The position numbers were made by a program, and so were the translations under genes. A DNA stretch of 64,000 bases from an uncultured Owenweeksia sp. (GTDB lineage: Bacteria > Bacteroidota > Bacteroidia > Flavobacteriales > Schleiferiaceae): NCBI GenBank assembly GCA_937146805.1, contig CAKZRR010000027.1, positions 1 through 64,000 on the forward strand. The letters run 5' to 3'. This document shows, one piece after another, positions 1 through 17,134 of the stretch. Under the pieces are notes generated by a model. The model was not told the DNA's origin, did not search any database, and saw only the letters and a program-made list of their open reading frames with translations. Each line of letters starts with the position of its first letter. Position 1 is the stretch's first letter.

Positions 1-67
1 AATTTCATACACTATATTTAAGATTAGTCTCCCAATATAGCATAAACACTTAATTAACCACTAAACC

Positions 68-297
68 GATAAATCCGTTCTATTATTCATTTTGATAATT
101 GGTTTCGTAACCAGGGCTCAGATATAATCTTAAAATTAAGCTCAATTGAGAGTGACACCATTAAAATAGATTATGAAACAATCCCTGGTTCTTGTATTGG
201 TGGAGTTAAAATAAATGGATTTTACTATAACGAAAAAGTTTACTACAGTGGACAACCAGAGGATTTTGGCAGTTATATTATAAGTATTTCAAAATAA
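68..297 (+). pseudogene. Remnant of a small secreted protein, frameshifted and without a start codon
   Basis: In one frame, 71-121 reads as a typical signal peptide (Lys-Ser, a hydrophobic run, then Thr-Arg-Ala-Gln). That frame stops at once at 125-127. The next frame over, from about 115 to 297, continues as a plausible 58-residue secreted-type C-terminus ending in IISISK. No ATG, GTG or TTG is suitably placed ahead of the signal peptide. I read this as a decayed gene with one frameshift at the signal-peptide junction. The alternative is chance open frames in AT-rich DNA. The product family is not recognised. Confidence 0.35.
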
Positions 298-423
298 AAC
301 TAATGCTAGCAGGCGTATTGCAAACATGGGGCTTCACGCTTTTGCCACCAACATTCAAGTCCTTTCGGACGTTGAAGTCTACTGAATTCGCACTATTTTT
401 ATTTAACCGTTATGGGCAACAAT
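298..423. other. Intergenic spacer with hairpin and GCTAGC motif
   Basis: This spacer between the remnant and the first lipoprotein gene is more GC-rich than its surroundings. It contains GCTAGC at 305-310 and an imperfect hairpin at 354-376 (TTCAAGTCC, loop TTTC, GGAC-G-TTGAA). It ends in AACCGTTATGGGC just before the next gene. GCTAGC recurs in the spacers near 1032, 4255 and 6507. The layout recalls spacers between mobile single-gene units, but no integrase gene lies in the window. Confidence 0.4.
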
Positions 424-978
424 ATGAAAACAGTAATACTGACATTAATAATTTTAACATTCTTGTGTTCTTGTGGACAACAAAGCAAACAACACGAACA
501 AGAAGCTCAAGCGGTTGAAAAAAGCCAATTAGATTCAACTCTAGTAAAAAAAAATGATAGCCAGATAATTAAAAAAAAGGTCGGTAAAGAGTTGTTTCAA
601 TCCATTTTGGATACTATAAAAACTAAAGGTGTAACGGTTGTTTTGCTAACTAGAAATGAATGGATTTACCAACCATTTGAAAACTGCGAGTCCTTTCTGA
701 AGTTTCATGAAAATGGAATAGGTGTGAGTTATAATTGCGAAATGGACGAAGATTATGAACTCACATACAAGATTGAAGGTAACAAAATATTTATTTCAGA
801 ATATGATATTCCACACGTTAACAATGAAGAACAGAAAAAAATAAAATTTAGGGAGGACACTTATGTTTATAATGGACATTCACTCGTAATGATTGACTCG
901 AAAATGTGCAATATTGGGGGACTTCAATGGATACCTAACATTGAAGTTGTAATTGATTATAAAAGCATGAAATACTAA
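424..978 (+). CDS. Hypothetical lipoprotein
   Basis: A 184-residue protein of unknown function. It begins with a lipoprotein signal peptide (Met-Lys, hydrophobic stretch, lipobox LCSC with the lipidated Cys at residue 17). A polar Gln/Lys/Glu-rich linker follows to about residue 50, then a compact domain to the end. I chose ATG 424 rather than the in-frame ATG 412 because it places the charged N-region directly before the hydrophobic core. It should be anchored in the periplasm or outer membrane. No catalytic motif is visible. Spacers on both sides separate it from its neighbours, so it is probably a single-gene unit. Confidence 0.7.
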   Translation: MKTVILTLIILTFLCSCGQQSKQHEQEAQAVEKSQLDSTLVKKNDSQIIKKKVGKELFQSILDTIKTKGVTVVLLTRNEWIYQPFENCESFLKFHENGIGVSYNCEMDEDYELTYKIEGNKIFISEYDIPHVNNEEQKKIKFREDTYVYNGHSLVMIDSKMCNIGGLQWIPNIEVVIDYKSMKY

Positions 979-1046
979 CCGCAACAACACCTGTATGCAA
1001 TACCCTTCGAGACACCGCGCATAACTAATCCGCTAGCAGTAATTGT

Positions 1047-1598
1047 ATGAGACCGACAACGAACAATATATTAACAACTATTCTGATGACTTTTTTTGTA
1101 TTCAATCTGGCTTTCGGACAGACGATCAAAAAGGACGGAGAAGAAGTAAAGCCTAACCCTGATACAAAAAAGAATGTGTCAATGTTGGTTGACAGTTTGA
1201 CTGGAACATGGAAATTGATAAGGACTATTCGATATGAAAACGGTGATACAATAATTCAGGAGCCTTCTACACAGCTTTGGTTTACTTCAGGTGCAAAACC
1301 ATCGACAAAAATTGTTTTAGATTCTTTGAGAAATTTTGAACTTGAACAAGCCTGTATGAAATGTCCATATCTTCACTGGATTGGCCGTTTTGAACTTGAA
1401 ACTAGAACTTATAATGGACTCGAGTTTTTCTATTTAAGTTTTATTGATGACCGGGTTAAGGAAACAAAAAAGAAGAAAAGAAAAAACGCATCTGTCCTAG
1501 AATTTAATGGTTATCTAACTGACCTTGGTAATGGTGAAATGACTTTAATGGATAAAGAAGGAAGAGAATGGATTTATAAACTAGAGGAAGAAGAGTAA
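1047..1598 (+). CDS. Hypothetical secreted protein, lipocalin-like start
   Basis: A 183-residue protein with an N-terminal signal peptide that probably ends after Ala-Phe-Gly at about residue 24. The mature part opens with a GTWKLI motif followed by alternating strands, which resembles the first strand of small lipocalin-like domains found in many Bacteroidota secreted proteins. This is a weak structural hint only. A Cys pair (Cys-Met-Lys-Cys, around residue 110) and a Lys/Arg-rich patch near residue 140 are visible. It lies alone between repeat-bearing spacers. Its function is unknown. Confidence 0.65.
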   Translation: MRPTTNNILTTILMTFFVFNLAFGQTIKKDGEEVKPNPDTKKNVSMLVDSLTGTWKLIRTIRYENGDTIIQEPSTQLWFTSGAKPSTKIVLDSLRNFELEQACMKCPYLHWIGRFELETRTYNGLEFFYLSFIDDRVKETKKKKRKNASVLEFNGYLTDLGNGEMTLMDKEGREWIYKLEEEE

Positions 1599-1983
1599 AA
1601 AACGCCTTAATTTCTAGTTAATTTTATTTTGAAAGTCCTTTTTTTTGGTGAAGGCCTTTCTACAAGGAAAACACATCGGTGCTTTGGAGATAGGAAATGG
1701 AATTTAGAGAGTATTTTATAGAAATGTATTTTTAGGTTTCTTTAACCAAAATCAATTAAGAACTAAACCCGTCCGAATGGCTCAGCCGGGCGGAGAACAA
1801 TCGGTAAGGTTAGAAACTAATTTAGTGTAAACCATGTCTCTTAACAAATATTCCAACGTATCATTATCGTATATTTTCGTATCGTATCGTATCGTTTCTT
1901 CAAACTAATATCGTATCATTATCGTGTATTTTCGTATCCTATCGTATCCATGTTGAAATATTCTTCTTAATATTGTTACCGTT
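1599..1983. other. 385-bp intergenic region with repeats
   Basis: No gene is supported here. Its left edge (about 1601-1640) resembles the first part of the dispersed repeat seen at 3127-3215 and 7180-7300. A 7-bp stem (CCGTCCG at 1769-1775, CGGGCGG at 1787-1793, one G-T pair) could form a hairpin. The right part holds the TCGTA-rich tandem repeat listed separately. Confidence 0.5.
1857..1949. repeat. Tandem repeat of about 55 bp rich in TCGTA
   Basis: Two near-identical units lie at 1857-1895 and 1912-1949. Each reads as CGTATCATTATCG followed by a TATTTTCGTATC block and further ATCGTATC steps. The spacing between unit starts is 55 bp. The array ends 35 bp before the TTG start of the Fic gene, so it could be an operator or promoter-associated element. 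Internal TCGTA steps also repeat every 5 bp within each unit. Confidence 0.75.
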
Positions 1984-3021
1984 TTGAATCAAGTACACAC
2001 ATTAAATATCGAAATTGATTGGAAATTAATTTCAATCATTAGCAAAATAGACCGATTTGATGCAGAATGGACTTCTATCGAAAAAAAAGAACATCAAAGC
2101 TTAAAACAATTAAAAGCAATCGCAACGATAAGAAGTGTTGGTGCATCTACAAGAATTGAAGGATCCAAAATGAGCAATGAAGAAGTAGATGTTCTTTTAA
2201 GCGATTTAACAATTGATAAGTTAGAAGATAGAGATTCTCAAGAAGTTGCTGGTTATTTTGAAGTTTTAGATTTAATTTCTGAATCATACGATGGAATTAA
2301 CATAACGGAAAATTCACTCAAAAATTTACACAATAGATTGTTAAGGTATAGTGCTAAAGATGCTTGGCATAAAGGAAATTATAAACAACTTAGCAACAGT
2401 GTAGAAGCGACATTCCCAGATGGTCCAACTCAAATAATTTTTGAAACAGCAACTCCTGGAATAGAAACTGAGGATGCCATGAGAGCATTAATGGAATGGT
2501 ATGCTAATGACAAAGAAACACATCCATTAGTTAAAACTGCAATATTTTGTTATGACTTTGTAAGTATTCATCCATTTCAAGATGGTAATGGTCGACTTAG
2601 CAGATTGCTTTCATCCTTATTACTTATCAAGTATGGTTATAAATGGATTCAATATGTAAGTTTTGAGCATGAAATAGAAAGTCGAAAAATTGAATATTAT
2701 CAAGAATTAAGAAAATGTCAAGCTCAACGTCCAAGGGAAGAAATTACTTCATGGATATATTTTTTCTTTGATGCATTAATCAATATCCAAAATAAACTAA
2801 TTGAAAAACTTAATAATCAAGGCATTGAATCAACTCTTTCTCCAAAAGAAAAGTCTATTTTAGTATTCATTGCAGATCATCCAGGAACGAAATCTGGTGA
2901 AATAGCGACTAAACTTAATATCCCAAATCCAACAGTTAAAAAAATACTCTCTGTACTTGTCAATAAAAACCTAATTGAAAAATATGGTTCAGGTCCAGGA
3001 ACAAATTATGGAATAAAATAG
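1984..3021 (+). CDS. Fic family protein (class II) with C-terminal winged helix
   Basis: A 345-residue Fic protein. The catalytic motif HPFQDGNGRLSR starts at His196 and is intact, so AMP-transfer (or other nucleotidyl or phosphocholine transfer) to a hydroxyl side chain is expected. The N-terminal inhibitory helix carries STRIEG (Ser55 to Glu59-Gly60), matching the (S/T)xxxE(G/N) motif of class II, self-inhibited Fic proteins. Residues about 285-345 form a winged-helix-like segment (SGEIATKLNI, then a recognition-helix-like PTVKKIL), which suggests DNA binding or autoregulation. The frame is closed upstream at 1954 and has no ATG before the conserved N-terminus, so TTG 1984 is the likely start. 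It stands alone downstream of the tandem repeat, with no separate antitoxin gene. Confidence 0.85.
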   Translation: MNQVHTLNIEIDWKLISIISKIDRFDAEWTSIEKKEHQSLKQLKAIATIRSVGASTRIEGSKMSNEEVDVLLSDLTIDKLEDRDSQEVAGYFEVLDLISESYDGINITENSLKNLHNRLLRYSAKDAWHKGNYKQLSNSVEATFPDGPTQIIFETATPGIETEDAMRALMEWYANDKETHPLVKTAIFCYDFVSIHPFQDGNGRLSRLLSSLLLIKYGYKWIQYVSFEHEIESRKIEYYQELRKCQAQRPREEITSWIYFFFDALINIQNKLIEKLNNQGIESTLSPKEKSILVFIADHPGTKSGEIATKLNIPNPTVKKILSVLVNKNLIEKYGSGPGTNYGIK

Positions 3022-3347
3022 GGTCAGGAATGGCCAACAATTGGAACCAATAAATACAATTATAAAAAGTAAAACTGGATCGCATTAATGATATTGAACC
3101 ACTACACTTAACAAAGAACTGTGCTAAAATCCAACTAAAAACTGCCTTAATTTCTATTTTTTTTCTTTTGAAAACCTCTTTGAATGGCTGGCGTTTACCG
3201 TGATTCTTCCTCACCCAAGCTTGAAAGAGTTTTAAAAAGGAAGCCCAAAACATTTGAGCACCTACTACATAAATACAGAGCCCATTTCTTTGGATGAGCC
3301 CTGAAACCTTGAGACGAATCCGGAATTATTGATTTGAGTCAAGAGAT
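3022..3347. other. 326-bp intergenic region carrying a dispersed repeat copy
   Basis: No gene is supported. Positions 3127-3215 match the repeat at 7180-7300: an AAAACTGCCTTA start, a T-rich run, TTTTGAAAACC, then AATGGCTGGCGTTTACCGTG. The remainder shows no clear promoter or terminator. Confidence 0.55.
3127..3215. repeat. Dispersed intergenic repeat, copy 1
   Basis: It aligns by eye with 7180-7300 over its whole length: GCCTTA, a T-rich tract, CTTTTGAA, a short variable part, AATGG, TTTACC and a pyrimidine-rich end. A shorter resemblance to its left half occurs at 1601-1640. Confidence 0.5.
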
Positions 3348-4220
3348 TTGATAACTAGCTTTCCCACATTTGCCCAGATTTTAAATCAAAGGATTGTGAT
3401 AAAGAACCCTAAAATAAACGCACTCGTTAAATCAATCGGTTTCATAGCCACGTACCTATTGTTTGGTGCAATTTTATCTCAAATAAAATATATGTTCCCA
3501 CCGCAATACGAGCGTTATGCACAAGGAATATTAGGCACAATAGGTGCAATTATTACGGTTATTATATTTCTTCGAATTGAGAAGAAAACCTTCAAAGACT
3601 ATGGATTAAATTGGGAAAACACTTCCTTCAAAAAATTCGGAATAGGACTGTCTCTAGGTATTGTGCTCGCTACAGTCATGATTCTTTCTCAAGTTCAATA
3701 CAGTGACTTAGTAATGACATACAATACCGATGTTAACCTAGTATCCTTTTTACCATGGTCTTTGGCTTTTATTCCATTAGCTTTTATGGAAGAGATTGCC
3801 TTCCGTTCATACCCTCTCCTAAAACTCAATAAATCCTTTGGATTGAGGACAACCCAAGTCATCTTAGCTGTACTATTCGCGCTTTATCATATGCTTATGA
3901 TGTGGTCTCCTCAATCCTCAATTCTTGGACCCGGAATTTGGGCATTGGCTTATGCCTTAACTGCGGTAGCATCTAATGGCATTGCTATGCCCACAGGGCT
4001 GCATTTCGGGCTAAATTTTGTGCAATCTGTATTAGGTGGACAAAAAGGAATTGAGCCCATTTGGAATTTAGATTACCCCGAAGGTGTTTCCGAAGCGGCA
4101 ATTACAGCGAATGAAAATTTTGGATTAGGCCTACAGATTAGCTTACTTATCGTAAGTATAATAGCAACCGAGATGTATATAAGGAATAAAACTAAAAACA
4201 AAAATATATACAGTGAATAG
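3348..4220 (+). CDS. CPBP-family intramembrane metalloprotease
   Basis: A 290-residue multi-pass membrane protein of the CPBP (CAAX protease and bacteriocin-processing, Abi) family. Family hallmarks are Glu148-Glu149 with Arg153 (EEIAFR), a His in the next helix (LYHML, near residue 181), and HFGLN with His and Asn in a later helix. These are the expected metal and catalytic positions in the membrane. About seven hydrophobic segments are visible. No ATG lies before the conserved part. TTG 3348 gives the longest product; GTG 3396, preceded by AAAGGATT, is an equally good start. In bacteria this family has roles in maturation, immunity to bacteriocins or unknown processing; the substrate here is unknown. 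Confidence 0.8.
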   Translation: MITSFPTFAQILNQRIVIKNPKINALVKSIGFIATYLLFGAILSQIKYMFPPQYERYAQGILGTIGAIITVIIFLRIEKKTFKDYGLNWENTSFKKFGIGLSLGIVLATVMILSQVQYSDLVMTYNTDVNLVSFLPWSLAFIPLAFMEEIAFRSYPLLKLNKSFGLRTTQVILAVLFALYHMLMMWSPQSSILGPGIWALAYALTAVASNGIAMPTGLHFGLNFVQSVLGGQKGIEPIWNLDYPEGVSEAAITANENFGLGLQISLLIVSIIATEMYIRNKTKNKNIYSE

Positions 4221-4277
4221 CGTCTTTCGGGATGCTAGAACTCCAAAAACGAAACGCTAGCGTAAATTTTTAAAACA

Positions 4278-5417
4278 ATGAAAATAGGAATAATAGGAGG
4301 TGGAATTACTGGATTAACAACTGCACTTGCTTTGCAGAAATTAGGAATTTCTTCGGTGGTATATGAGCAATCTAAAGAACTGAATGAAGTTGGTGCTGGC
4401 ATATGGCTACAACCTAATGCTATTAAAATTTTAGATTGGTTGGGACTCAAAGACGAAATTAGGGAGCAAGGTTATGAACTCGATAAAATGGAAATCACAA
4501 ACTCACAATTGGTTCCTTTTAAAAAAATAAAGAGTAAAGTAGTTCAAGACGAAGAAGGAAATAAAACAATAGCTATTCACCGAGCCAGGCTTCAAAAAGT
4601 CCTCTACAACAAGTTACTAGAGTCAAACACAATTGAACTCGGCAAAAAGTACAAAAGTCATAATGTAGAATCCGACTCCATTCAAATAGAATTTGAAAAC
4701 AGTAGTGATAGGGTTGATGTACTTTTAGGTGCCGATGGCATAAACTCAAAGGTTAGACAGTCCATAGAGCCGCAAGCTACTTTACGCGATTCGGGACAAG
4801 TGTGCTGGAGGGGTGTTGCCAAAATGACCCTACCTGATGAACTTAAGGATTTTGGGCGAGAAGCCTGGGGGAATCAAATTAGGTTTGGATTTTCATCCAT
4901 TAATGATGAAGAGATCTATTGGTTTGCTGTAGCGAATGCTTCCCATAGGGAGAGGGCTAATAAAACGGGGCTAAAACAATATATCACTAACATGTTTCAA
5001 GATTTTTCTCCAGTTGTCACGGAGCTTATCGCAGCCACAAAACCAGAAAGCATTCACCAAGGAATTCTTCAAGACTTGAAAAAAATCTCCCCTTGGCATC
5101 ATCATAGGGTTTGCTTAATTGGCGATGCAGCACATGCCACCACACCTAATATGGGACAAGGTGCCTGCCAAGGGATTGAAGATGCTTACTACCTCAGTAA
5201 CTGTATCTCTGCATCACTTCCAAACGCAGAAAAGGCTTTCAGAGTGTTTGAGCAAAAGAGAAGAAAAAAAGTAGATTCGATTGTCAACACTTCTTGGCAA
5301 ATAGGACAAATGGCGCATAGTAAAATTGGCCAACCCATTATGAAACTCATGATGAAAATAACTCCTGAAAGTGTGGTGAGCGCACAAATGAATAAATTGT
5401 ATACCATTGATAAGTAA
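4278..5417 (+). CDS. FAD-dependent monooxygenase (UbiH/salicylate-hydroxylase type)
   Basis: A 379-residue flavoprotein of the group A aromatic hydroxylase family. The N-terminal Rossmann motif GGGITG (residues 7-12) binds the FAD ADP part, the GADGIN segment near residue 150 is the DG motif for FAD and NAD(P)H, and IGDAAHATTPNMGQG (about 275-290) is the GD motif that contacts the FAD ribose. It probably inserts one oxygen atom into a small aromatic or polycyclic substrate using NAD(P)H; substrate unknown. TetX-like or zeaxanthin-epoxidase-like roles are possible alternatives. It is cytoplasmic, with no signal peptide. The start ATG lies in a 57-bp spacer containing GCTAGC, so it is probably an independent unit. 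Confidence 0.85.
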   Translation: MKIGIIGGGITGLTTALALQKLGISSVVYEQSKELNEVGAGIWLQPNAIKILDWLGLKDEIREQGYELDKMEITNSQLVPFKKIKSKVVQDEEGNKTIAIHRARLQKVLYNKLLESNTIELGKKYKSHNVESDSIQIEFENSSDRVDVLLGADGINSKVRQSIEPQATLRDSGQVCWRGVAKMTLPDELKDFGREAWGNQIRFGFSSINDEEIYWFAVANASHRERANKTGLKQYITNMFQDFSPVVTELIAATKPESIHQGILQDLKKISPWHHHRVCLIGDAAHATTPNMGQGACQGIEDAYYLSNCISASLPNAEKAFRVFEQKRRKKVDSIVNTSWQIGQMAHSKIGQPIMKLMMKITPESVVSAQMNKLYTIDK

Positions 5418-5486
5418 AAATAATACGGAACAAAGCGTTTAGTGCATACCCTTAGGAAGCTTAGATACTTTGCTGGGTTCGTTGTG

Positions 5487-5557
5487 CTTACCTTGCTCCC
5501 TCCTGTTTTCTTACTACCTTCCTCCAAAATAAAGCCGAAGCTAACATAGGTTAATGC
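5487..5557. repeat. Dispersed intergenic repeat, copy 2
   Basis: A 71-bp element beginning CTTACCTTGCTCCCTCC and ending CTAACATAGGTTAATGC. It is about 85-90% identical by eye to 6439-6508, and its pyrimidine-rich first half also matches 7261-7300. The last part contains a short TAAC-ATAG-GTTA hairpin. Confidence 0.8.
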
Positions 5558-5641
5558 GAATAAACACGAAGCAACGGTATAGCTACCATCAATGCTTCTT
5601 AGGTAATGAGCATTGCCGAAGAAAATTATATTACATCTAAA

Positions 5642-6352
5642 ATGAGATATTTTATATTAATACTATTAATTCCAATATTTACGAAGGTGTACTCTCAATG
5701 CGAAGGAAATCCTTTGGAATATTTGGATGCTAATGGAGAAAAATTCACTTATCATAAACTTGATTCATTGAATTTAACTCAGTTTTATTATTTAAATGGT
5801 ACACTTTCGTTATGCTCTTTATATGAACCAGCATTTACCAATGAGGTTCAAAATTCGTATAATGGCACATCACCTAAGCTCTACAATCTCCAAAGTAACG
5901 ATAGCCCGAGAATTTCTTCTACGTGGCCAATTGACACCTGTGTTACATGCTACTCTAAAAAAGTTAAGATCATTGATTCAATAGATGTAAACAAAGATGG
6001 GGTAAAAGAATTATTCTTATATCGAGAGTGGTACTGTACTGCTCCTTACTACCATAGTATACCGCATAATTCTCAAAGACAATCACAAAGACTAAGTCAG
6101 TATGAGGTTTGGGATATCCAATCGAATAGAAATATTTTTCAAGTAAAAAACAGATGCGAAAGCAGCATTCCTTTTACAGTAAATGTTATGAATACAGTAG
6201 GATATAGTTTTGATTTATTAATCAAAAAAAATGGTTCTATCTCGGCACCAAACTGGACGAAACATCGCAGACCATATGATAACAATCCTGAAGAAATAAA
6301 TGAGGCTGTTTATGTATATAATTTTAGAACTAAAAAATATGAAAAGAAGTAA
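5642..6352 (+). CDS. Hypothetical secreted protein
   Basis: A 236-residue protein of unknown function with a clear signal peptide (MRYF, hydrophobic core, cleavage after Val-Tyr-Ser at about residue 18). ATG 5642 is chosen over the upstream in-frame ATG 5606 because it begins the signal peptide correctly. A DVNKDGVKELFLY segment near residue 118 looks like the DxNxDG calcium loop of FG-GAP/VCBS-type repeats, present here as a single copy. Six or more Cys residues in the mature part suggest disulfides. It sits between two copies of the dispersed repeat. Confidence 0.65.
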   Translation: MRYFILILLIPIFTKVYSQCEGNPLEYLDANGEKFTYHKLDSLNLTQFYYLNGTLSLCSLYEPAFTNEVQNSYNGTSPKLYNLQSNDSPRISSTWPIDTCVTCYSKKVKIIDSIDVNKDGVKELFLYREWYCTAPYYHSIPHNSQRQSQRLSQYEVWDIQSNRNIFQVKNRCESSIPFTVNVMNTVGYSFDLLIKKNGSISAPNWTKHRRPYDNNPEEINEAVYVYNFRTKKYEKK

Positions 6353-6438
6353 CGTAGTATGAATTATATAAACTCATTTTACATTAAACGTTAGGGCATG
6401 GTGATCCTTAGCCAAAACGCTCCCAGGTGCGGCCAGCA

Positions 6439-6508
6439 CTTACCTTACTCCCTCCTATTTTTCACTACCTTCCTCCCAAATAAAACCGAACCTAACATAG
6501 GTTAATGC
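6439..6508. repeat. Dispersed intergenic repeat, copy 3
   Basis: A 70-bp element matching 5487-5557 almost throughout (CTTACCTTACTCCCTCC to CTAACATAGGTTAATGC). It is followed directly by GCTAGC at 6507-6512, the palindrome found in other spacers of this zone. An AACGTTAGGGC motif lies upstream near 6384. Confidence 0.8.
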
Positions 6509-6560
6509 TAGCTGTAGTATGTTACGTAACTAAGGTTGTGGTGCATTTAACAAAACGATA

Positions 6561-7160
6561 TTGAAAACTATTTCATTTTACATCTTAGTACTTTTAACAT
6601 TAACTTCTTGCGACTGCTACCAAGTTGTTACAGGATCTGTGCCGGATAGAGAAACTAAAGAACCTTTAAAAGGTGTAAGGGTTTTTAATAAGAAAAAGAA
6701 TTGGAGTGAAATTAAAACTGATTCTTTTGGACATTTTGAATTATCCAACGTATCCGGAGGGTTTGGCTGCCCACTAATGGAAATTGTAATCGAAGGCCCT
6801 GAATATAAAACTAAAGAGGCCAAAATTGAAGCAGGAGGATTTACAGAAATCTATTTGACTAAAAGGCAAAATTTACCACAAGGGAGGTTCATTTTCGAGT
6901 TATACTTTGCTGAGTTTGGGGGGCGAATGGCAAATTCGAAATGTGAAGTAACAATTAATGGAAATAAAATAACTGTTGAACAAACTGAAACCACAAATTT
7001 ATCTGGCGGCAAGGAAATATTTCGAGGATTGATTTTAAAGCATAAATCTGGGAAATGGATTTTAGCAGACCATGAAGATGACATCAATGCTGATGAAATT
7101 GGAGGCTGTACTGACATTCCGATTATTGAATTTGACAGAAACTTAATAGAGTGGTGCTAA
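6561..7160 (+). CDS. Lipoprotein with carboxypeptidase-regulatory-like domain
   Basis: A 199-residue lipoprotein. The signal peptide ends in the lipobox LTSC, with the lipidated Cys at about residue 17. The next segment (VTGSVPDRETKEPLKGVRV, then a phenylalanine-glycine turn DSFGHFELSNV) is the start of a carboxypeptidase-regulatory-like (CarboxypepD_reg/CNA-B type) beta-sandwich, common in Bacteroidota surface proteins. The C-terminal half (about 105-199) is not recognised. The only good start for the signal peptide is TTG 6561. It stands alone between repeat copies. No enzymatic motif is visible. Confidence 0.65.
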   Translation: MKTISFYILVLLTLTSCDCYQVVTGSVPDRETKEPLKGVRVFNKKKNWSEIKTDSFGHFELSNVSGGFGCPLMEIVIEGPEYKTKEAKIEAGGFTEIYLTKRQNLPQGRFIFELYFAEFGGRMANSKCEVTINGNKITVEQTETTNLSGGKEIFRGLILKHKSGKWILADHEDDINADEIGGCTDIPIIEFDRNLIEWC

Positions 7161-7179
7161 AAAAAACGACACCACAGCA

Positions 7180-7300
7180 AAAAACTAGGCTAGAATCCAG
7201 CAAAAAACAGCCTTATTTTTATTTATGCTTCTCTTTTGAATGCCCTTTCTAATGGATGATCTTTACCATGCTACCTCCTATTTTCTCACTACCTTCCTCT
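7180..7300. repeat. Dispersed intergenic repeat, longest copy
   Basis: This copy joins both halves of the family. The left half (about 7188-7262) matches 3127-3215, and the right half (7261-7300, CTTTACCATGCTACCTCC then TCACTACCTTCCTC) matches 5487 and 6439 onward. It shows that the shorter copies are fragments of one element. No open frame of note lies within it. Confidence 0.6.
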
Positions 7301-7391
7301 CACTTAACCGTTCGCCTAAAAGCGAATTCCTAAAAGATAAAAATGCGGTGTTTTATTCAATCTTCACTAAAACACCCATATATTGTTCACT

Positions 7392-8120
7392 ATGTTGCGA
7401 AGCTTTTTTACTTATACCCTAATATTAATGACCGTGTTACAAACAAGCTGCTCAGAAGATGAGGCACTTACTTTAAAGATACCTAAAGAGGGCTTTGAGG
7501 TAGTCCAACATATTCCTAAAGACTCTGTTGGAAGAGACCAAAACGCACTCTATCTAAATGCAAGAAGAATTAAAAGCGAAGAATTCAATTCTGTTGAACT
7601 CAACACTCTTATAGATAGTATGTACGCAATTATGCTTAAAAAGGCTGGTGTGGGCATCGCAGCTAATCAACTGGGGAAAAGGTTACAAATATTTATTATC
7701 GAAGCTAAGGTTGAAAATCCTAGATACAAAGTATTAGGCCCCGTGGTAAAACAGATTTTTGTAAATCCAAAAATTACCAACGTTTCTAAAACTCGTAAAA
7801 ACTTTTGGCATGGCTGTTTAAGTGCCCAAGGAGAAAAAAAAGGTAACGTAGCAACCTTTGAATGGATTGAATACGAGTGTCAAAATCAAAAAGGTGAAAT
7901 TAAACGTGGAAAATTAGATGGATTTGCGGCTGTAATATTCCAACATGAATTTAGACATTTAATGAAGGGTACTTATTTAGACCATGCCACTCACTTTCTT
8001 TCTAAGGATGTCTTAGAGAAAAAACTTGAAACTGGAGAAGTGCCATTTTTTGAACTTGCAAAAGATACCTTACCCCTACTTATAAATGGCTACCAATTAA
8101 AAGAGAACCTTGAATACTAA
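7392..8120 (+). CDS. Lipoprotein peptide deformylase-like metalloenzyme
   Basis: A 242-residue protein with a lipoprotein signal peptide (lipobox ending in Cys20 of LQTSC) fused to a peptide-deformylase fold. Motif 1 is GVGIAANQLG (87-95, family GxGxAAxQ), motif 2 is HGCLS with the metal-ligand Cys142 (family EGCLS; Glu is replaced by His), and motif 3 is HEFRH with His185, Glu186 and His189 (family HExDH; Asp is replaced by Arg). All three metal ligands and the catalytic Glu are therefore present. Normal deformylase acts on ribosome-bound chains in the cytoplasm; this one should lie outside the inner membrane, so its substrate is unknown. ATG 7392 begins the signal peptide. Confidence 0.8.
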   Translation: MLRSFFTYTLILMTVLQTSCSEDEALTLKIPKEGFEVVQHIPKDSVGRDQNALYLNARRIKSEEFNSVELNTLIDSMYAIMLKKAGVGIAANQLGKRLQIFIIEAKVENPRYKVLGPVVKQIFVNPKITNVSKTRKNFWHGCLSAQGEKKGNVATFEWIEYECQNQKGEIKRGKLDGFAAVIFQHEFRHLMKGTYLDHATHFLSKDVLEKKLETGEVPFFELAKDTLPLLINGYQLKENLEY

Positions 8121-8178
8121 AAGTTAAAACAGGTTAAGCCGAAAACTGACTAGAGTAGGCGAAAAAGAAAAATTTAAA

Positions 8179-8634
8179 ATGGAAAATTCACATTTAGAAA
8201 CATTTAAAGCAGAAGCTAGCGGCCGTGGATGGCAAACTAAGGTGGATATTACTGGTACCGAGTGGAACTTTCAATTAGATGAGCCTACCGAGGATGGAGG
8301 AACTAATTCAGGAGCTAATCCGATGCAGTACTTCGCGGCTTCTTTGGCTGGTTGCCAAAATGAACAGGCTCAAGTAGTAGCCGATGAACTTTCTTTGAGC
8401 ATCAATCAAATTGGCATTAGCTTAGAAATTGACTTAGATCTTTCGGGCTTTATGGGGGTTAGCGATCACTCCAACGGAAGTTATAAGGCCGTGCGTATTG
8501 ATGCTTTTGTGAGTGGAGAGGTAACTGATGAGCAAGTAAAAAATTTGGGCAAAAAAGTAGATGAGCGCTGCCCCATTTTAGCATTGCTACGTTCAAGTGG
8601 TTGTAACATTACAAGTAACTGGAGTAAGAAGTAA
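8179..8634 (+). CDS. OsmC family protein
   Basis: A 151-residue OsmC/Ohr-superfamily protein. The two redox cysteines are in the expected places: Cys59 in LAGCQ on the central helix and Cys131 in ERCPILALL. The NPMQYFAASLAGC segment is characteristic of the YhfA/OsmC-like branch rather than Ohr. It probably reduces organic or lipid hydroperoxides with a dithiol reductant in the cytoplasm. It is followed by a strong bidirectional hairpin shared with the convergent protease gene. The start ATG is preceded by an A-rich leader, usual for Bacteroidota. Confidence 0.9.
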   Translation: MENSHLETFKAEASGRGWQTKVDITGTEWNFQLDEPTEDGGTNSGANPMQYFAASLAGCQNEQAQVVADELSLSINQIGISLEIDLDLSGFMGVSDHSNGSYKAVRIDAFVSGEVTDEQVKNLGKKVDERCPILALLRSSGCNITSNWSKK

Positions 8635-8656
8635 AACCTTCATTAAATCAAAAAAC

Positions 8657-8691
8657 AAACCCCCAGTAAGCATGCAGCTTATTGGGGGTTT
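8657..8691. terminator. Bidirectional rho-independent terminator
   Basis: A 14-bp stem, AAACCCCCAGTAAG paired with CTTATTGGGGGTTT (one G-T pair), around a 7-nt loop. It lies between the convergent OsmC and C1-peptidase genes and has A-rich and T-rich flanks for both directions. Confidence 0.85.
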
Positions 8692-8725
8692 CAATTTATC
8701 AATCGGCTAAAAGCCAAAAACAAAC

Positions 8726-9913
8726 TTAAAGACTTAACTTCTTTTTCACATCCTTAGGCAATGCATCTTTGTGCATTAAAACCGAAATAGTTTTGTAATC
8801 AAAAAAGGCTTTTGAAGCATAAATATAACCTGAACGGTTATCATTCTCACGTTCACCCCAGCTGTTTTTTACCATATAATACTCACTTCCATTTTGATCT
8901 TTTACCATTCCGGTAATCTGCATACCGTGGTCATCGGTGGTGGTATAATTATCATAACCATCCTGGCGGCTTTCTTGTGTTATTTTCATTTCCGTTTTAG
9001 GTGCGCTAAACATCTCTGCACGTTCCTCCTTGGTCATATCGCTGTATTTCTTTTCGGGCACAATAGCCAAACCATTTTTAAGCGAAAAACCTTTCTCGCT
9101 TACATCACAAGCCCAACCAACAGAGTAGCCTTCTGTAAGCGCAGCATCCACAACATTGTGCATTGAATTTACAGGCACGTTATAGCTTAATCCCCAAGTC
9201 CAGTTATCAGGAACTTGAATCATTACGGGGCTAAACATGGGTTGATGTGTAAAACTTGTAATCTGAACATAATCGTCCGCTTTTACGCCTACTACCTCAT
9301 CGGCAAAACTACGTGGAGTATAGGTTTTTCCATTCCACTTAAAAGTCTCAGGGTAAGCACCTAAATAGGCATCCAAAGTGGCTTCAAAGGCCACTTTCCA
9401 AGATTTGGTAAGTGTTTTATTAGGATTTTTCACCACCTGCTCCAACTGTGCTTTTAAAATACTTTCTAACTCGCCATGGTTGTTCTTTTCAGTTCCGTAA
9501 TCCAATCCTTCATACACTTCTTGAGGTACTGCACCGTACTTTTTTAATACATGCATTACATCTGGCAAAGCACCACCTTGACCAAAGTTTAAATAACCAT
9601 GCAGGCGCACATATTTTTCGGCTTTATCCAAATACACCATACGCACGGTAAACATTTCCGAAATATCAACCGGCTCTTTACCCATTCTAATCATCTCGCT
9701 TTCTACAAACGATGTAGTGGCATAACTCCAACAGGTGCCGCTTCTTCCCTGGTCCTTTACAGGTGTAGCCTCAATATCTACTATCGTTTCAAATTTATAG
9801 CCTTCGCTAGATTCGCCTCCGTTGTCTTTTACCTTATTAATTAAATCATCTTGAGCAAAGGCAACTGAAAACAGTCCTAAACTCAAGGCGGTAAACATTC
9901 CTTTTCCGTTCAT
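8726..9913 (-). CDS. Secreted C1 family cysteine peptidase (aminopeptidase C/bleomycin hydrolase type)
   Basis: A 395-residue papain-superfamily protease with a signal peptide cleaved near AFA-QDD (residue 20). The oxyanion and catalytic segment DQGRSGTCWSYA contains Cys61. The catalytic His is His329 (DDHGMQITG) and Asn350 lies in VKNSWGE, completing the triad. The long gap between Cys and His fits the C1B (PepC/bleomycin hydrolase) subfamily, but unlike the cytoplasmic members it is exported, as is usual for Bacteroidota homologues. Expected role: aminopeptidase or peptide processing in the periplasm. It is monocistronic, converging on the OsmC gene. Confidence 0.9.
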   Translation of the reverse strand: MNGKGMFTALSLGLFSVAFAQDDLINKVKDNGGESSEGYKFETIVDIEATPVKDQGRSGTCWSYATTSFVESEMIRMGKEPVDISEMFTVRMVYLDKAEKYVRLHGYLNFGQGGALPDVMHVLKKYGAVPQEVYEGLDYGTEKNNHGELESILKAQLEQVVKNPNKTLTKSWKVAFEATLDAYLGAYPETFKWNGKTYTPRSFADEVVGVKADDYVQITSFTHQPMFSPVMIQVPDNWTWGLSYNVPVNSMHNVVDAALTEGYSVGWACDVSEKGFSLKNGLAIVPEKKYSDMTKEERAEMFSAPKTEMKITQESRQDGYDNYTTTDDHGMQITGMVKDQNGSEYYMVKNSWGERENDNRSGYIYASKAFFDYKTISVLMHKDALPKDVKKKLSL

Positions 9914-9975
9914 TATTATTTATATTAATTTACTGAAATTTGATAAGCTCGCTAAAGTATTAAACCTCGCCATAT

Positions 9976-10842
9976 ATGAAACTCTTAAAGCGGCTATTAA
10001 GCCCTAAGTTTTTGATTATTTTAACATTTATCGTGATTTTACTAGCGGCTTCTACCTCTTTCATCAATTTACAAATGGATGAAGGTGAAATTGAAGCCGC
10101 CTTTTTAAAAACCGATTACCAACCTACTCACCATTATAATGTCTTACCTGTACAATTGCATTATGTTACGGTAGGCGATAGTTCCAAAACTCCCCTTCTA
10201 TTAATTCACGGTTCACCCGGAAGTTGGGATGCTTTTGTCCCGTTTATCACGGAAACCAATCTTTTAAATCACTATTATATCATTGCCATTGATAGACCAG
10301 GCTATGGAAAAAGTACCACCATTGAAAAACAAAATTTAATGCATCAGGCGGAGGCCATACTACCTATAGTAAATCAATACTTCTCTAACAAAGGTGTTGT
10401 TATGGGACATTCGTACGGAGGTGCGCTTGCTTTGAAACTAGCCGCCAATCATCCTCATAAGTTTTCAGGTGTAGTTTCAGCTGCTGGATCTATTTCCAGC
10501 CAACTGCAAAAACCAAAGTGGTATAACTATCTTGTTAAATACAGTCCATTGCAATGGCTTTTAAAAGCAGAGTTTGTAGCCAGTAACAATGAAATGTGGA
10601 ACCTAAAAACGGATTTACTATTGCTGGAAAAAGATGCGCCCATGGTTAGTGGTAAAGTAGCTTTAATACAAGGTGGTAAGGATGTCCTAGTGAACCCCAA
10701 ATCGGCTGATAAATTTGAACCTTTTCTCACTAAAGCAAGCGTCAAAAAATACCAGCCCAGCTCCATGAATCATTTTATAATTTGGAGTGACAAAGAACTC
10801 CTAATAAATGCTTTAAAGTGGGTAAGTACCGATTTTAATTAG
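9976..10842 (+). CDS. Alpha/beta hydrolase, membrane-anchored
   Basis: A 288-residue alpha/beta-hydrolase-fold enzyme. The nucleophile elbow is GHSYGG (Ser146), the probable acid is Asp236 in GGKDVLV, and the His is His266 in SMNHFI. The oxyanion strand LLIHGSPGS precedes them. The N-terminus has one hydrophobic segment (residues about 11-31), which is probably a signal anchor that leaves the catalytic domain in the periplasm. It could be an esterase, lipase or peptidase; the substrate cannot be told. It is divergent from the C1 peptidase gene and followed by its own terminator. Confidence 0.85.
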   Translation: MKLLKRLLSPKFLIILTFIVILLAASTSFINLQMDEGEIEAAFLKTDYQPTHHYNVLPVQLHYVTVGDSSKTPLLLIHGSPGSWDAFVPFITETNLLNHYYIIAIDRPGYGKSTTIEKQNLMHQAEAILPIVNQYFSNKGVVMGHSYGGALALKLAANHPHKFSGVVSAAGSISSQLQKPKWYNYLVKYSPLQWLLKAEFVASNNEMWNLKTDLLLLEKDAPMVSGKVALIQGGKDVLVNPKSADKFEPFLTKASVKKYQPSSMNHFIIWSDKELLINALKWVSTDFN

Positions 10843-10855
10843 TTTAGTAAATCCA

Positions 10856-10890
10856 AAAAATCCCGCTATCATTTATGGAGCGGGATTTTT
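10856..10890. terminator. Rho-independent terminator, bidirectional
   Basis: AAAAATCCCGCT at 10856-10867 pairs perfectly with AGCGGGATTTTT at 10879-10890 around an 11-nt loop. It is placed between the alpha/beta hydrolase and the convergent M4 protease gene and can serve both. Confidence 0.9.
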
Positions 10891-10909
10891 AATGCTAATT
10901 TCAGTATGC

Positions 10910-13729
10910 TTAATGCACCGTTATTTTCTCGGTATAAATACCAGCACCTCTTTGCAACTGCACCAAATAAATACCTTTAGGTAAATAGCTTAAATCTAAC
11001 TGTATTTGGCTAGCACCATCAGCCGAAAAATCTTTGGATAGCACTTGCTCTCCTTTAGCATTTAACACTTGCAAACCTACTCCCTCCAAATTATTATCAA
11101 TCCAAGAAACTGTAACTACACCACTGGTTGGGTTAGGAAAAATTTTGGTGGAAGCCAAGTTCTCTTCTCCTAAATCAACAAAAGCAAAATCACCAAAAAG
11201 GATATTATCAATATACGAGTTATCTCCCAAGGTGGTAGATGGATCTTCGGCTCTGCTTAAAAAGTGTTTTCCTTCTAAACACAATTCAAACTGTTGGCCA
11301 ACCAACCTATCTAAACTTACATATTGGGTAACAAAAGTATCCTGGGTAGTGGTGGTAGGATGGTAAATCCAACCTTCTTGAACACCATCAACGGTTACTC
11401 TTAAGCTACTAACAATTTTATTGGCGCCTGGCCCTAGAAAAAAGCTGTAAACACCTGAATACGTTTGACGCAAATCAAACTGCAATGTGGCGTGTTGCAT
11501 ATTACTGGCATCTACACACATACAAACCTTGGCCGAAAACTCTGGGTTCTTATCAAAAACTTCACTTTCGTCTGCAGGAATATCTAAATCAAACAAATCG
11601 GCATCTTCGGCCGTAAGTACCGCCCCTCTAAAACCAGTGCTTTTTCCTTGAAAGTGGGCAAAAGCTTTTCCGTTGTCACCTTCAATTAAATTGTGAATTG
11701 TATTTTCATAGGCTGCTGAAAACGTTTCAAAGGTTACCGAATCTGTTTTAGTAAAAGGCGCCAATACATTTATTTTATGCGAAAAGATACTGTCATTTTC
11801 TCGCATAACATCCCTTGAATAAGCTACCCAAAAATTCAAGTTATATGATCCAGCTGCACTAAAATTGGCTGTACTATTAAAAGTATATGTTAAAGTATCC
11901 CCGCTATTAATTCGGCTAGCAGCCACCATAGGCTCCAATACAGGCGTGCCATTATTAATATTGTAACCCATCCAAATAGTATCGCCAGACTCTATTGTAC
12001 TATCACAACCTGAACGGTGGTAAGTATAGGTGAATTCTAAAGCTTCTTGACTGCCAATTTCGCAACTGTTATTTGGCGAGTTAATTTTTAAAATCTCTAC
12101 ATCCTGCGATAAGGTATCAGACCCAATACCAACCGCATACCAAGCTTGTGCAATTAGGTTGGCCTCATAAGAGCAGCTTCCATAAATATCCTCAGCAGCT
12201 GAGATGGAACCTCTTCTTGAATCGTAATAATCGGAACTAGGGGTTAAATAATAATTTAGGTTTCGATAGGCTATCTCAGTAGTTTTTACAATTCCAAAAC
12301 TATCTACCTGGTAGCTATTTCCTAAATCGTTGTTACCGGTTCCTCCCTCACAAAGTAAATAGAACCAATAATTTTGTACACCACTATTGGTATGCACTCC
12401 TCCGTTGTCACCAGTTCCTGTAAACCAGTTAATTCCGAAATAAGTATCTGGGTCACCAAAACTTTTAGGTGCATGAATATTTCTCAAATGAAAATCAAGC
12501 TTGCCCATCTCGTAATCAGCCGCGCCACCTAAAGTATAAAACTCTATAGCTGTTCCAAAAATATCGCTAAAAGACTCGTTTAAAGCACCTGATTCATTGG
12601 CATATACCAAAGCAGCAGAGTTGCCCGTAACACCATGTCCTAGCTCATGCCCAACAATATCAATAGATAATAATGGATTTCCGTTTCCATCTCCGTAACG
12701 CATAGCAATACCATTCCAACTGGCGTTAAACCAAGCGCTATCCCAATGGACAAAACTGGTAATCTTAGCACCATTGCCATCGTAGCTGTTCCTACCGTGC
12801 ATTTGCATAAAATAGTCATAAGTCATTTGAGCACCCCAATGTGCATCTGTTGCTGCATCATCTCCACCTATGGTGTTTTGCCAAACATTGTTGCTATCCG
12901 TAAAAGGTACCGAAGCAGCAACATCTGTAGTTTGCAATGCATTTCGAGTTTCAATTCCACCACCTCTTGTAACGTCATTCAATTCATAGTGATTAACCGA
13001 AATGGAATCGGTGATAATACTACGCTGTCCATGATACCTGGTATGCGCTGTTCCGTTGGCGGCACCGCTATGGCATTGGTGTTCTTCCCAAACCAATGCA
13101 CCCGTGTGGGCATCTAAGTAAAACACTTTGTGATCCTCGGTAGCTTTAAAAAATAAATCAAACTTATACGCTAACTGGTAATTATCGCCATTTTGAGCAA
13201 ATTCAGAATCTATCCAAACCAGTTCATTTTTAGGATAAAAAGTAGCGGTTGGATCGTTTTTTTGATCTTTGATCCAAGCTTCCATTTGCGGCATTTCCCA
13301 GTAAAACTGAGTAGCACCCGTATGAGCCTTAGCTAATTTCAAAGCCTCTTCAAACGAAAGTGTGGCAATCGAATTTCCTTGAATGCCCTTAACTAATCGT
13401 CCGTTGGCTTTTTCTACTAAACCATTTTTTTCGTGCAGTAAAAATTGAGCGCCTTCAACTTTTATATTTTTATAATGTTGTTGGTAGCGGTAATGGGTAA
13501 AGTCTAGTGGGTCACGCTCTTTCTTAATTAAAATAAAGGAAGTGTTGGCATCAAAGCCTAAGCTTGATTTATAGTTTTCGAAAAAACCATTTGTCGTTAC
13601 CTGATTTTGACTTTTAAACTGCCACCAGTTTCCGTGGTCATCGGCAGTAGCCACATAGTTAATATTGGCTTGTGCCAACAAACTTCCTGTAGCAAGAGCG
13701 CAAGCCGCTGCCAAAAATGCATTTCTCAT
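10910..13729 (-). CDS. T9SS-exported M4 (thermolysin-like) metallopeptidase
   Basis: A protein of about 939 residues. ATG 13729 starts a signal peptide (MRNAFLAAACALA, cleavage near LLAQA); an upstream in-frame start at 13774 would bury it. An FTP/PepSY-like propeptide covers roughly residues 40-210. The M4 catalytic domain has HELGH (about residue 358) with the third zinc ligand Glu in NESGALNESFSD some 20 residues on, and a distal HTNSGV segment holding the substrate-binding His. Beta-sandwich regions fill residues 580-850. The last 80 residues (FPNPTSGVV to KITVH) are a T9SS type A sorting domain, so it is exported across the outer membrane. Likely role: extracellular protein digestion. 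It is monocistronic. Confidence 0.93.
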   Translation of the reverse strand: MRNAFLAAACALATGSLLAQANINYVATADDHGNWWQFKSQNQVTTNGFFENYKSSLGFDANTSFILIKKERDPLDFTHYRYQQHYKNIKVEGAQFLLHEKNGLVEKANGRLVKGIQGNSIATLSFEEALKLAKAHTGATQFYWEMPQMEAWIKDQKNDPTATFYPKNELVWIDSEFAQNGDNYQLAYKFDLFFKATEDHKVFYLDAHTGALVWEEHQCHSGAANGTAHTRYHGQRSIITDSISVNHYELNDVTRGGGIETRNALQTTDVAASVPFTDSNNVWQNTIGGDDAATDAHWGAQMTYDYFMQMHGRNSYDGNGAKITSFVHWDSAWFNASWNGIAMRYGDGNGNPLLSIDIVGHELGHGVTGNSAALVYANESGALNESFSDIFGTAIEFYTLGGAADYEMGKLDFHLRNIHAPKSFGDPDTYFGINWFTGTGDNGGVHTNSGVQNYWFYLLCEGGTGNNDLGNSYQVDSFGIVKTTEIAYRNLNYYLTPSSDYYDSRRGSISAAEDIYGSCSYEANLIAQAWYAVGIGSDTLSQDVEILKINSPNNSCEIGSQEALEFTYTYHRSGCDSTIESGDTIWMGYNINNGTPVLEPMVAASRINSGDTLTYTFNSTANFSAAGSYNLNFWVAYSRDVMRENDSIFSHKINVLAPFTKTDSVTFETFSAAYENTIHNLIEGDNGKAFAHFQGKSTGFRGAVLTAEDADLFDLDIPADESEVFDKNPEFSAKVCMCVDASNMQHATLQFDLRQTYSGVYSFFLGPGANKIVSSLRVTVDGVQEGWIYHPTTTTQDTFVTQYVSLDRLVGQQFELCLEGKHFLSRAEDPSTTLGDNSYIDNILFGDFAFVDLGEENLASTKIFPNPTSGVVTVSWIDNNLEGVGLQVLNAKGEQVLSKDFSADGASQIQLDLSYLPKGIYLVQLQRGAGIYTEKITVH

Positions 13730-13988
13730 GTAAATAAAATTGATTGTAACTTCATGTAAAATAGGGTGCTGCAATTTACATCAAAAAGCCAAATTTTTAG
13801 CTACTCAAAAACACAGCGTTTATCTGTCACGGGTATCTCACTTATACTAAGATTTGCCAATCCTCCTAATTTTATGTTAAAACTCATACAACCTACTGTT
13901 AAAGACTTCGTCTAAACAATCAGAACACATTTCTTCTGGTTAGGTTTGTGTTATCCAAAATTCTGCTGCGCCTAAATCATTATTTGTT

Positions 13989-15317
13989 ATGAAAAAAATA
14001 ATATTGGCCAGCCTCGCTTTATGCGTTATTTCTGCCGCAGCCCAAGTACAGCCCTCCGCTCCAAAACACTTTGAAGAAAAGCTAAATAAAAAAGAAACTT
14101 TACAACTAGAACAGGAGCAGGCGCTGAAACAGAAAATCAATAAAAATGTAAAACTCAAAACTGCTGGTGGAATTGTTAGTCAGCGTATGAGTCATGCTGA
14201 CATTGCTTTTGATGTAAACAGTGGGACGCTCAGTCCGTTCTACTCGCCACTGGCTCCTGATAGCACCTTTTTACAAGATTTTGGCACTGGTGCTGATGGC
14301 ATTAATGTACATGGATTTGGACAAACTTTTGACCCTACCAGCGTGGGTTTCCCGCTACTTGGGCTTGATTATTTTGATACCGCTGACTCTTATACAATTG
14401 ATACTATTTACATTGGAGGCAGATACCGATTGGCCAGTCCTACAACAGGGCTTACGGGCGACACTTTAGAAGTAACGTATTTTATGGGTGATAATGCAAA
14501 CGACAATGTTTGGCGCGTTGGTATTGGTTATGCGGCCAATACGTTTCCTGGTCAAGCAAACAGACTTAATGTATTACCTCCTCGATTTACTGGTAACGCA
14601 AACATTGGAACACCTGGTATCATTGACGCCCCAAACAAAATAACCCTCAAAATTCCATTAAAGGCTCTTGATACAGCAAGTACTTTTATAAAAGTAGTGC
14701 CCAGCAGTCCTATTCAAGTTCCTGCCGGAGAAAAGTTTGGCGTTTTTTGCAGCTTTATCCCCGGGTATTCTTATGATCCATCCACACAGCTCTATTATAT
14801 TTCAGGCAGTAAATCAGATGTAAATTACTTTGCTCGTCTCTATTATAGAGGCAGTAATGCAAGTGATGACACTCCTTACTTTCTTGAAAAACACCAAATT
14901 GACCCCGATAGTGAAGGCATTGGATCTGCTCTATACTCTAACACCCGCTATGCAGCCTGGACGGGAACAGATGCCTTTAGAAACGAGTATGCATCCCCGA
15001 GCACTACTAGAGGTAATATTATTGACTTTTGGGTTTCAGGAAATTCAACCGTGGGATTAAAAGAACAATCCAACAAAACCATGGCAAAGCTATACCCAAC
15101 TCAAAGCAATGGTGTTATTAACCTCCAATTTAAACAAGGCGGCACTTACAACCTGCAGATTGTAAATCTACTAGGGCAAACGTTACACCAAGAAAATGTT
15201 GAGTTAAATGGCAACGAAAAACTAACTCGTGATGTAAGTCACCTAAAAAGTGGAGTCTATCTTTTCATTCTAGAAGGAGATGGAAATCGCCAAACCATTA
15301 AATTTTCCATTCAGTAA
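13989..15317 (+). CDS. T9SS type A cargo protein, tandem paralogue 1
   Basis: A 442-residue secreted protein of unknown function. It has a signal peptide (MKKIILASLALC, cleavage near AAAQ), a Lys/Glu/Gln-rich helical stretch (28-60), a conserved GGIVSQRMSH segment, a large beta-rich body, and a C-terminal T9SS type A sorting domain (about 365-442, ending IKFSIQ). It is about 50% identical by eye, and equal in length, to the protein encoded just downstream, so the pair arose by tandem duplication. In this copy the usual YPNPS-type motif of the sorting domain reads YPTQS. A TAGGTTTG -7-like box lies at 13941-13948, without a clear -33 element. It ends at its own terminator. Confidence 0.85.
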   Translation: MKKIILASLALCVISAAAQVQPSAPKHFEEKLNKKETLQLEQEQALKQKINKNVKLKTAGGIVSQRMSHADIAFDVNSGTLSPFYSPLAPDSTFLQDFGTGADGINVHGFGQTFDPTSVGFPLLGLDYFDTADSYTIDTIYIGGRYRLASPTTGLTGDTLEVTYFMGDNANDNVWRVGIGYAANTFPGQANRLNVLPPRFTGNANIGTPGIIDAPNKITLKIPLKALDTASTFIKVVPSSPIQVPAGEKFGVFCSFIPGYSYDPSTQLYYISGSKSDVNYFARLYYRGSNASDDTPYFLEKHQIDPDSEGIGSALYSNTRYAAWTGTDAFRNEYASPSTTRGNIIDFWVSGNSTVGLKEQSNKTMAKLYPTQSNGVINLQFKQGGTYNLQIVNLLGQTLHQENVELNGNEKLTRDVSHLKSGVYLFILEGDGNRQTIKFSIQ

Positions 15318-15336
15318 GCTCACCCTATTTAACTGC

Positions 15337-15366
15337 AAAATAGCCGCCATTACGCGGCTATTTTTT
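15337..15366 (+). terminator. Rho-independent terminator
   Basis: AAAATAGCCGC (15337-15347) pairs with GCGGCTATTTT (15354-15364) around a 6-nt loop and is followed by a T run. It separates the two paralogous T9SS genes, so each probably has its own promoter. Confidence 0.9.
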
Positions 15367-15477
15367 TGCCCTTTTGTTAACACTTTTTGTGATTTCTTTA
15401 ACCTACCCTCCTCAAAAGCTTCGGTATATTTGAATCACCCCTAAGGTTTGGCTCAGCGAAAACTAAAACCCTACAAA

Positions 15478-16806: not shown

Positions 16807-16827
16807 AACAAATCCTTATATCTCAGT

Positions 16828-16865
16828 AAAAAGGGTAGATGCGCAAATGTGCGTCTACCCTTTTT
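16828..16865 (+). terminator. Rho-independent terminator
   Basis: AAAAAGGGTAGATGC pairs with GCGTCTACCCTTTTT (one G-T pair) around a short loop and is followed by a T-rich tail. It ends the second T9SS paralogue gene. Confidence 0.88.
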
Positions 16866-16877
16866 ATTTTAAGACCT

Positions 16878-16917
16878 GTCTCGTCCTAAAAACCGTCAAC
16901 TTATTTTAGGACGGGAC
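16878..16917. repeat. 14-bp inverted repeat
   Basis: GTCTCGTCCTAAAA (16878-16891) and TTTTAGGACGGGAC (16904-16917) are inverted copies with one G-T pair, separated by 12 nt. It follows immediately after a good terminator. It could be a second hairpin, a regulator site, or the remnant end of a mobile element; the sequence alone does not decide. Confidence 0.6.
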
Positions 16918-17134
16918 AATCCCATCGCCAAAAAAACTTCATATTGACTTATCTCTTGTCTATCATTTTAACTCATTTTGTATTTTTAACCATTCATCAC
17001 AGGAATAAAATAGAAAATAGACCAACCAAAAAAACTGACGGTTAGCTGGTTGTGTTTTTTAATGAAGATTTTGAATTATAAAGTATTAGGAAAACAGCCC
17101 TAATCGCTTTACAAATTAGGCAGGAATTAGAAAG

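Follow-up and report, generated by a model that had tools for sequence, protein, structure and literature searches.

The gene discussed here occupies positions 7392 to 8120 on the forward strand of the window, that is, the whole stretch of 64,000 nucleotides of an uncultured Owenweeksia sp. that was analysed. An ATG at 7392 opens an ORF of 242 amino acids, at the place given in a preliminary description of this DNA, and an in-frame TTG at 7383 is an alternative start that would add three residues. The gene sits between a lipoprotein-like ORF and a gene for an OsmC-type protein, neither of which belongs to any neighbour cluster common to at least three of the related loci treated below. Just 5' of the start codon, a nine-base inverted repeat can be discerned by eye (7347-7376, with arms 7347-7355 and 7368-7376), possibly a regulatory or terminator hairpin. 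Related intergenic repeats follow successive genes at 5488-5524, 6440-6476 and 7263-7299, and also occur at 1596-1641 and 3136-3181. An integron cassette is not supported, although the contig begins at base 1 of the window: the repeats fold no better than shuffled sequences in the four stretches compared, Rfam gave no match over positions 1-20000, and a repeat query (7225-7310) has matches at four places in the genome only, three of them in this stretch.

Peptide deformylase (PDF) is a protein-maturation enzyme, normally at work at the ribosome, and it is usually seen as ribosome-bound, cytoplasmic and an essential antibiotic target. The product of 7392-8120 is confirmed as a homologue of this enzyme. 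The Pfam profile PF01327 (Pep_deformylase) matches it at 9.7e-29, scoring 100.4 bits where the cut-off is 22.8; its score for TIGR00079, the canonical equivalog of NCBIfam, is 86.3 bits and lies below the cut-off of 103.95. An AlphaFold model, based on an alignment (A3) of 36 sequences made up of the window protein and 35 of the 44 related loci, has a mean pLDDT of 86.5. Its best match among PDB structures is 6jf8 (Z 22.1, rmsd 1.8 over 157 residues), and all solved structural matches among those listed are deformylases. A phmmer search against the PDB found 79 distinct sequences, and the best 60 of these 79 are all named as deformylases except one, which is labelled a phage membrane-associated protein. 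The deformylase fold proposed at the outset is thereby borne out. With the canonical type 1B PDFs (Acinetobacter 6jf8/6jes, Burkholderia 5kob, Leptospira 1sv2) the protein has in common the fold (Z 20-22), the Cys/His/His ligands, the Glu of HExxH and the Gln of motif I. It differs from them in its N-terminal export signal, in HGCLS, in Thr/Ser for Arg102 and Arg/Lys for Asp135, in an acidic C-terminal extension and in being an accessory copy.

A scan of one genome per species, covering 84,980 species, yielded 44 loci of the same kind, which together with the window gene are called clade A here. In the window protein, motif I reads GVGIAANQ (residues 86-93, 7647-7670 on the forward strand, as for all features below), with Gln93 kept. 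Motif II reads HGCLS (residues 140-144, 7809-7823), with the metal ligand Cys142 kept and His140 in the place of canonical Glu88, and motif III reads HEFRH (residues 185-189, 7944-7958), with the ligands His185 and His189 and the catalytic Glu186 kept and Arg188 in the place of Asp135. All of these residues and both unusual motifs are present as they had been described. A third change, absent from the preliminary description, is that of Arg102, whose place is taken by Thr155 (7854-7856) in the window and by Thr or Ser in the clade. The canonical residues bear E. coli numbers, anchored by the motifs.

The two motifs are a signature of the clade. In an alignment of 44 sequences (the window and 43 of the 44 loci, the incomplete L083 being left out), Gly86-Val-Gly-Ile-Ala90, Gln93, His140-Gly-Cys142, His185, Glu186 and His189 are invariant, and position 188 of HExR/KH holds Arg in 37 sequences and Lys in the remaining 7. 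This conservation is not due to chance, because HGC, the ligands and the catalytic Glu do not vary in any of the 44 sequences and dN/dS amounts to 0.05-0.09 in six of eight pairs, dS being undefined in the other two. The gene is kept by purifying selection, and the same observations rule out a pseudogene. When canonical PDFs and the clades B and C introduced below are compared with clade A (represented by the window, L135 and 42 of the 44 loci, without L080 and L083), Glu88, Arg102 and Asp135 are found to be replaced by His, Thr/Ser and Arg/Lys in 44/44 clade A sequences and kept in 28/28 canonical, 5/5 clade B and 17/17 clade C sequences. Since the three are lost together, they may constitute one charge network. 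The preliminary description had regarded two strict positions as altered. The step from EGCLS to HGCLS is a real departure, whereas the Asp of HExDH is not strict under the newer definition of motif III given in PMC12690207, HEXXH-Phi-X-G.

Substituted conserved motifs, by which type 3 PDFs are defined, are found in clade A in the form of the altered motif II. The type 3 enzymes of S. aureus, S. pneumoniae, trypanosomes and archaea are likewise accessory and carry motif substitutions; the likeness is drawn from the descriptions in PMC5591237 and PMC12690207, where an export signal is not among the features mentioned for type 3. As motif-altered type 3 PDFs are, in the same two accounts, often weak or inactive, a motif II other than EGCLS argues against an active N-formyl hydrolase. 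It could be imagined that the clade consists of non-catalytic binding proteins, relatives of type 3 by virtue of the changed Glu88, Arg102 and Asp135, in which the PDF fold and the metal have been kept for other ends than catalysis. The three linked substitutions in 44/44 sequences and the weakness of type 3 enzymes are in accordance with such a protein, which we nevertheless consider unlikely, invariant metal ligands, Glu186 and Gln93 in 44/44 being unexpected if catalysis has been lost.

Three PDF genes are present in the genome of the window: a canonical one (172 bits, with EGCLS and HEYDH), a paralogue with a hydrophobic N-terminus and intact EGCLS and HEIDH, and the window gene itself. 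Likewise, a separate high-scoring canonical PDF accompanies the clade A gene in 43 of the 44 clade A genomes, the exception being G712, an assembly of 1.7 Mb. A normal def gene therefore exists elsewhere, as had been supposed, and the possibility that the window gene is the sole deformylase of its genome is ruled out.

Clade A is rare and patchy. Its loci are mostly Bacteroidota by title; five are labelled Verrucomicrobiaceae and one is a gammaproteobacterial bin. A further copy, with 71% identity and without annotation, lies on a plasmid record of Persicobacter. In the window's family, 3 of 88 genomes contain the full gene and a fourth a fragment at a contig end, while the three other genomes of the window's genus lack it. 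A clade A profile found the gene in 1 of 395 genomes of the phylum, namely that of the window (E up to 1e-45). A DNA pattern for HGCLS matched in 88 of these 395 genomes, but the reversed control also matched many and the count was set aside. A phage or viral gene was considered and rejected: 27 phage records matched, all with less than 60% identity and none covering 80% of the query. A short-pattern scan of viral contigs found no clade A member.

In certain aspects, clade A is reminiscent of the accessory PDFs of integrons, plasmids and Vibrio described in PMC12690207. Both are extra copies beside an essential one, both are patchy, and the Persicobacter copy is likewise on a plasmid record. 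The accessory PDFs tested in that survey support growth or counter actinonin as deformylases, whereas clade A has an export signal. An anchored PDF fold might also serve as a decoy or sink for natural inhibitors such as actinonin and thus spare the essential cytoplasmic enzyme. The rare, patchy distribution would suit an optional resistance gene of this kind, the metal site and a basic residue at position 97 are kept (Arg in 42/44, Lys in the window, Arg or Lys in 43/44), and accessory PDFs lower the susceptibility of Vibrio cholerae to actinonin, as reported in PMC12690207. The effect described there is, however, that of a less sensitive active enzyme and not of binding, and a sink would require large amounts of protein. 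Furthermore, the same source reports for the Vibrio enzyme no or an intermediate effect of E87Q and L125F on actinonin resistance and a strong effect of R97Y, and at the positions of E87 and L125 clade A has Trp and Phe in 44/44 sequences, which would be odd for a sink (Phe125 is also found in clades B and C). We therefore hold this role to be quite improbable.

At the C-terminus, the basic tail of canonical PDFs is replaced by an acidic extension specific to the clade (7989-8117 in the window). The net charge after HExxH has a median of -4 (-8 to +1) in 44 clade A sequences, against +9 (+8 to +12) in 28 canonical ones. Since the C-terminal region of the E. coli enzyme aids ribosome contact, according to PMC12690207, a tail of this charge argues against ribosome binding.

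The N-terminus (7392-7451) has the makings of an export signal: Arg3, a hydrophobic core, and LQTS followed by Cys20. In 41 of 46 clade A sequences (the window, the 44 loci and Persicobacter) a hydrophobic core precedes a conserved Cys, and the Cys is kept while the core drifts. The claim of export is thus upheld for most members, and export is well supported. With respect to lipidation, the situation is less certain. The preliminary description saw a lipobox before Cys20; the hydrophobic core and the Cys are there, and the strict pattern, which is the PROSITE form, is missed by LQTS-C with its non-standard Gln at -3. Only 12 of the 41 signals have a strict lipobox. The residue before the Cys is Ser, Ala or Gly in 30 and Lys, Gln, Thr or Arg in 11, and the latter four are hard for lipoprotein signal peptidase, so that true lipidation across the clade becomes less certain. 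These counts include L135, L054 and L081, in which the Cys was placed by hand and -1 is Ser, Lys and Gly, respectively (L135 is without a strict lipobox). At the clade A loci, a hydrophobic start together with a Cys is also seen in 43 other ORFs, 28 of which have Ser, Gly or Ala at -1. Because of the Ser at -1, lipidation of Cys20 in the window protein seems likely, not sure. As a whole, the picture of a lipid-anchored extracytoplasmic deformylase has stood as far as the export of most members, the signature and the separate def gene are concerned: the N-terminus is signal-like in 41/46, and the deformylase is not the only one of its genome. It has lost ground as regards the lipid.

In the window protein, a positive residue before the hydrophobic core and negative residues after it favour a location of the mature part outside the cytoplasm. 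The mature start C-S-E-D-E resembles the surface signal SDDFE derived for lipoproteins of F. johnsoniae (PMC5080379), a likeness that hints, and no more, at a surface location. Unlike the Bacteroidota surface lipoproteins as described in that paper, clade A does not have acidic residues in general: none occur at +2 to +6 in 8 of 41 sequences (three rows being counted from an earlier Cys).

Five of the 46 members, all labelled Verrucomicrobiaceae (L053, L056, L058, L059 and L063), have no signal, and none was seen upstream of these genes in any of three frames. The activity would therefore not be tied to one compartment, which argues against a purely surface role. Together with the low share of strict lipoboxes and the Lys, Gln, Thr or Arg at -1, these signal-less members count against an extracytoplasmic, lipid-anchored enzyme.

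The neighbourhood of the gene adds a further element. Near the PDF and upstream of it in 4 of the 44 loci, L067, L069, L071 and L076, lies a lipoprotein-like ORF that by eye we take to be akin to the cyclase/kynurenine formamidase family; it is possibly another formyl-amide hydrolase. The neighbour kept most often is a two-domain GNAT acetyltransferase (PF00583 + PF18014). In 13 of the 44 loci it adjoins the PDF and runs in the same direction, 8 times with the GNAT first (in L054 the contig ends within it) and 5 times with the PDF first. A GNAT match exists in 19 of the 44 clade A genomes, 13 of these having it adjacent, and none was found in the other 25; the same query found none in the genome of the window. 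Each of the five signal-less genes is followed by a GNAT gene. The loci are closely related, so there are few independent instances of this adjacency; the two gene orders nevertheless argue for a working link between PDF and GNAT in those lineages.

Such a link supports the idea of a cytoplasmic enzyme for small N-formyl amines, which would deformylate its substrate and leave the free amine to be acetylated by the adjacent GNAT, the N-terminal stretch being a tether facing the cytoplasm or a feature variable among lineages. It counts against a purely extracellular role. The GNAT sequences examined begin without a hydrophobic stretch, and this fits a cytoplasmic substrate better and speaks against the explanation that we prefer. 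The lack of a GNAT match in 25 of the 44 genomes and in that of the window, and the charges flanking the hydrophobic core of the window protein, which favour a mature part on the outside, point the other way, and we give the cytoplasmic enzyme only a small probability.

Two further exported groups of PDF-like proteins were found in Bacteroidota. Clade B comprises L002 (1498-2181, in the genome of the window C8:31590-32030), L035 (2920-3549), L115 and L116, with intact EGCLS and HEIDH and N-terminal signals, and also a row without a signal, L117. Some members of this clade are lipoprotein-like: in three of those four copies a Cys follows directly on Ser or Gly (IASC, IASC, IIGC), and the own-genome copy has no Cys at that place. 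Clade C (17 loci, L118-L134, family code f2) has Sec signals whose end, judged by eye, lies before a Gln (as in NAQ-K), and in 17/17 the metal-binding Cys is replaced by Asp (EGDLS), a change that might suit an oxidising compartment. In the best trees, which are unrooted and include a single reference that does not come from these genomes, clade A (the window, L135 and 42 of the 44 loci, L080 and L083 being left out) and B+C are well supported (100/97 each) and stand apart. A joint clade of the exported forms A and B+C was not rejected in trees of 37 of the 95 rows (p-AU 0.199). It is tempting to speculate that in Bacteroidota the deformylase has left the cytoplasm, on one occasion or perhaps several, in clade A and in the clades B and C with their lipobox or Sec signals. 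These would then form an extracytoplasmic class that deformylates exported or foreign N-formyl peptides and could control formyl-peptide signals outside the cell. We regard this broader proposal as tentative and, on balance, doubtful.

For clade A itself, the reading that we prefer, and to which we would give an even chance, is that of an N-formyl hydrolase located outside the cytoplasm, probably held by a lipid anchor, whose substrate is a non-ribosomal one. An accessory PDF paralogue would have left the ribosome. Its Sec-type signal would take the protein across the inner membrane, where it would stay anchored, probably via a lipid on Cys20, and face the periplasm or the cell surface. The metal bound by Cys, His and His, in combination with Glu186, would probably hydrolyse the amide of an N-formyl or similarly small acyl group. 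Instead of the nascent chain, candidate substrates could be N-formyl peptides derived from the N-termini of membrane proteins, from cast-off signal peptides or from the surroundings, the formylated peptides of other cells, given as an example in the preliminary description, being one of several readings. A supply of formyl groups outside the cytoplasm is plausible, as N-out membrane proteins have been proposed, in PMC5454389, to escape deformylation. A literature search, with most subscription papers outside its coverage, found no paper on exported deformylases. In the main text of the accessory-PDF survey PMC12690207 the words "lipoprotein", "secreted" and "bacteroid" are absent, and "signal peptide" and "periplasm" appear once each, where substrates and cloning vectors are discussed.

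In some aquatic bacteria an extra copy of the deformylase carries an export signal together with a changed active site and probably acts outside the cytoplasm. If this is true, formyl groups would be handled not only inside the cytoplasm but outside it as well, and a family of exported deformylases could bear on the formyl-peptide signals sensed by immune cells and on deformylase inhibitors in the environment.
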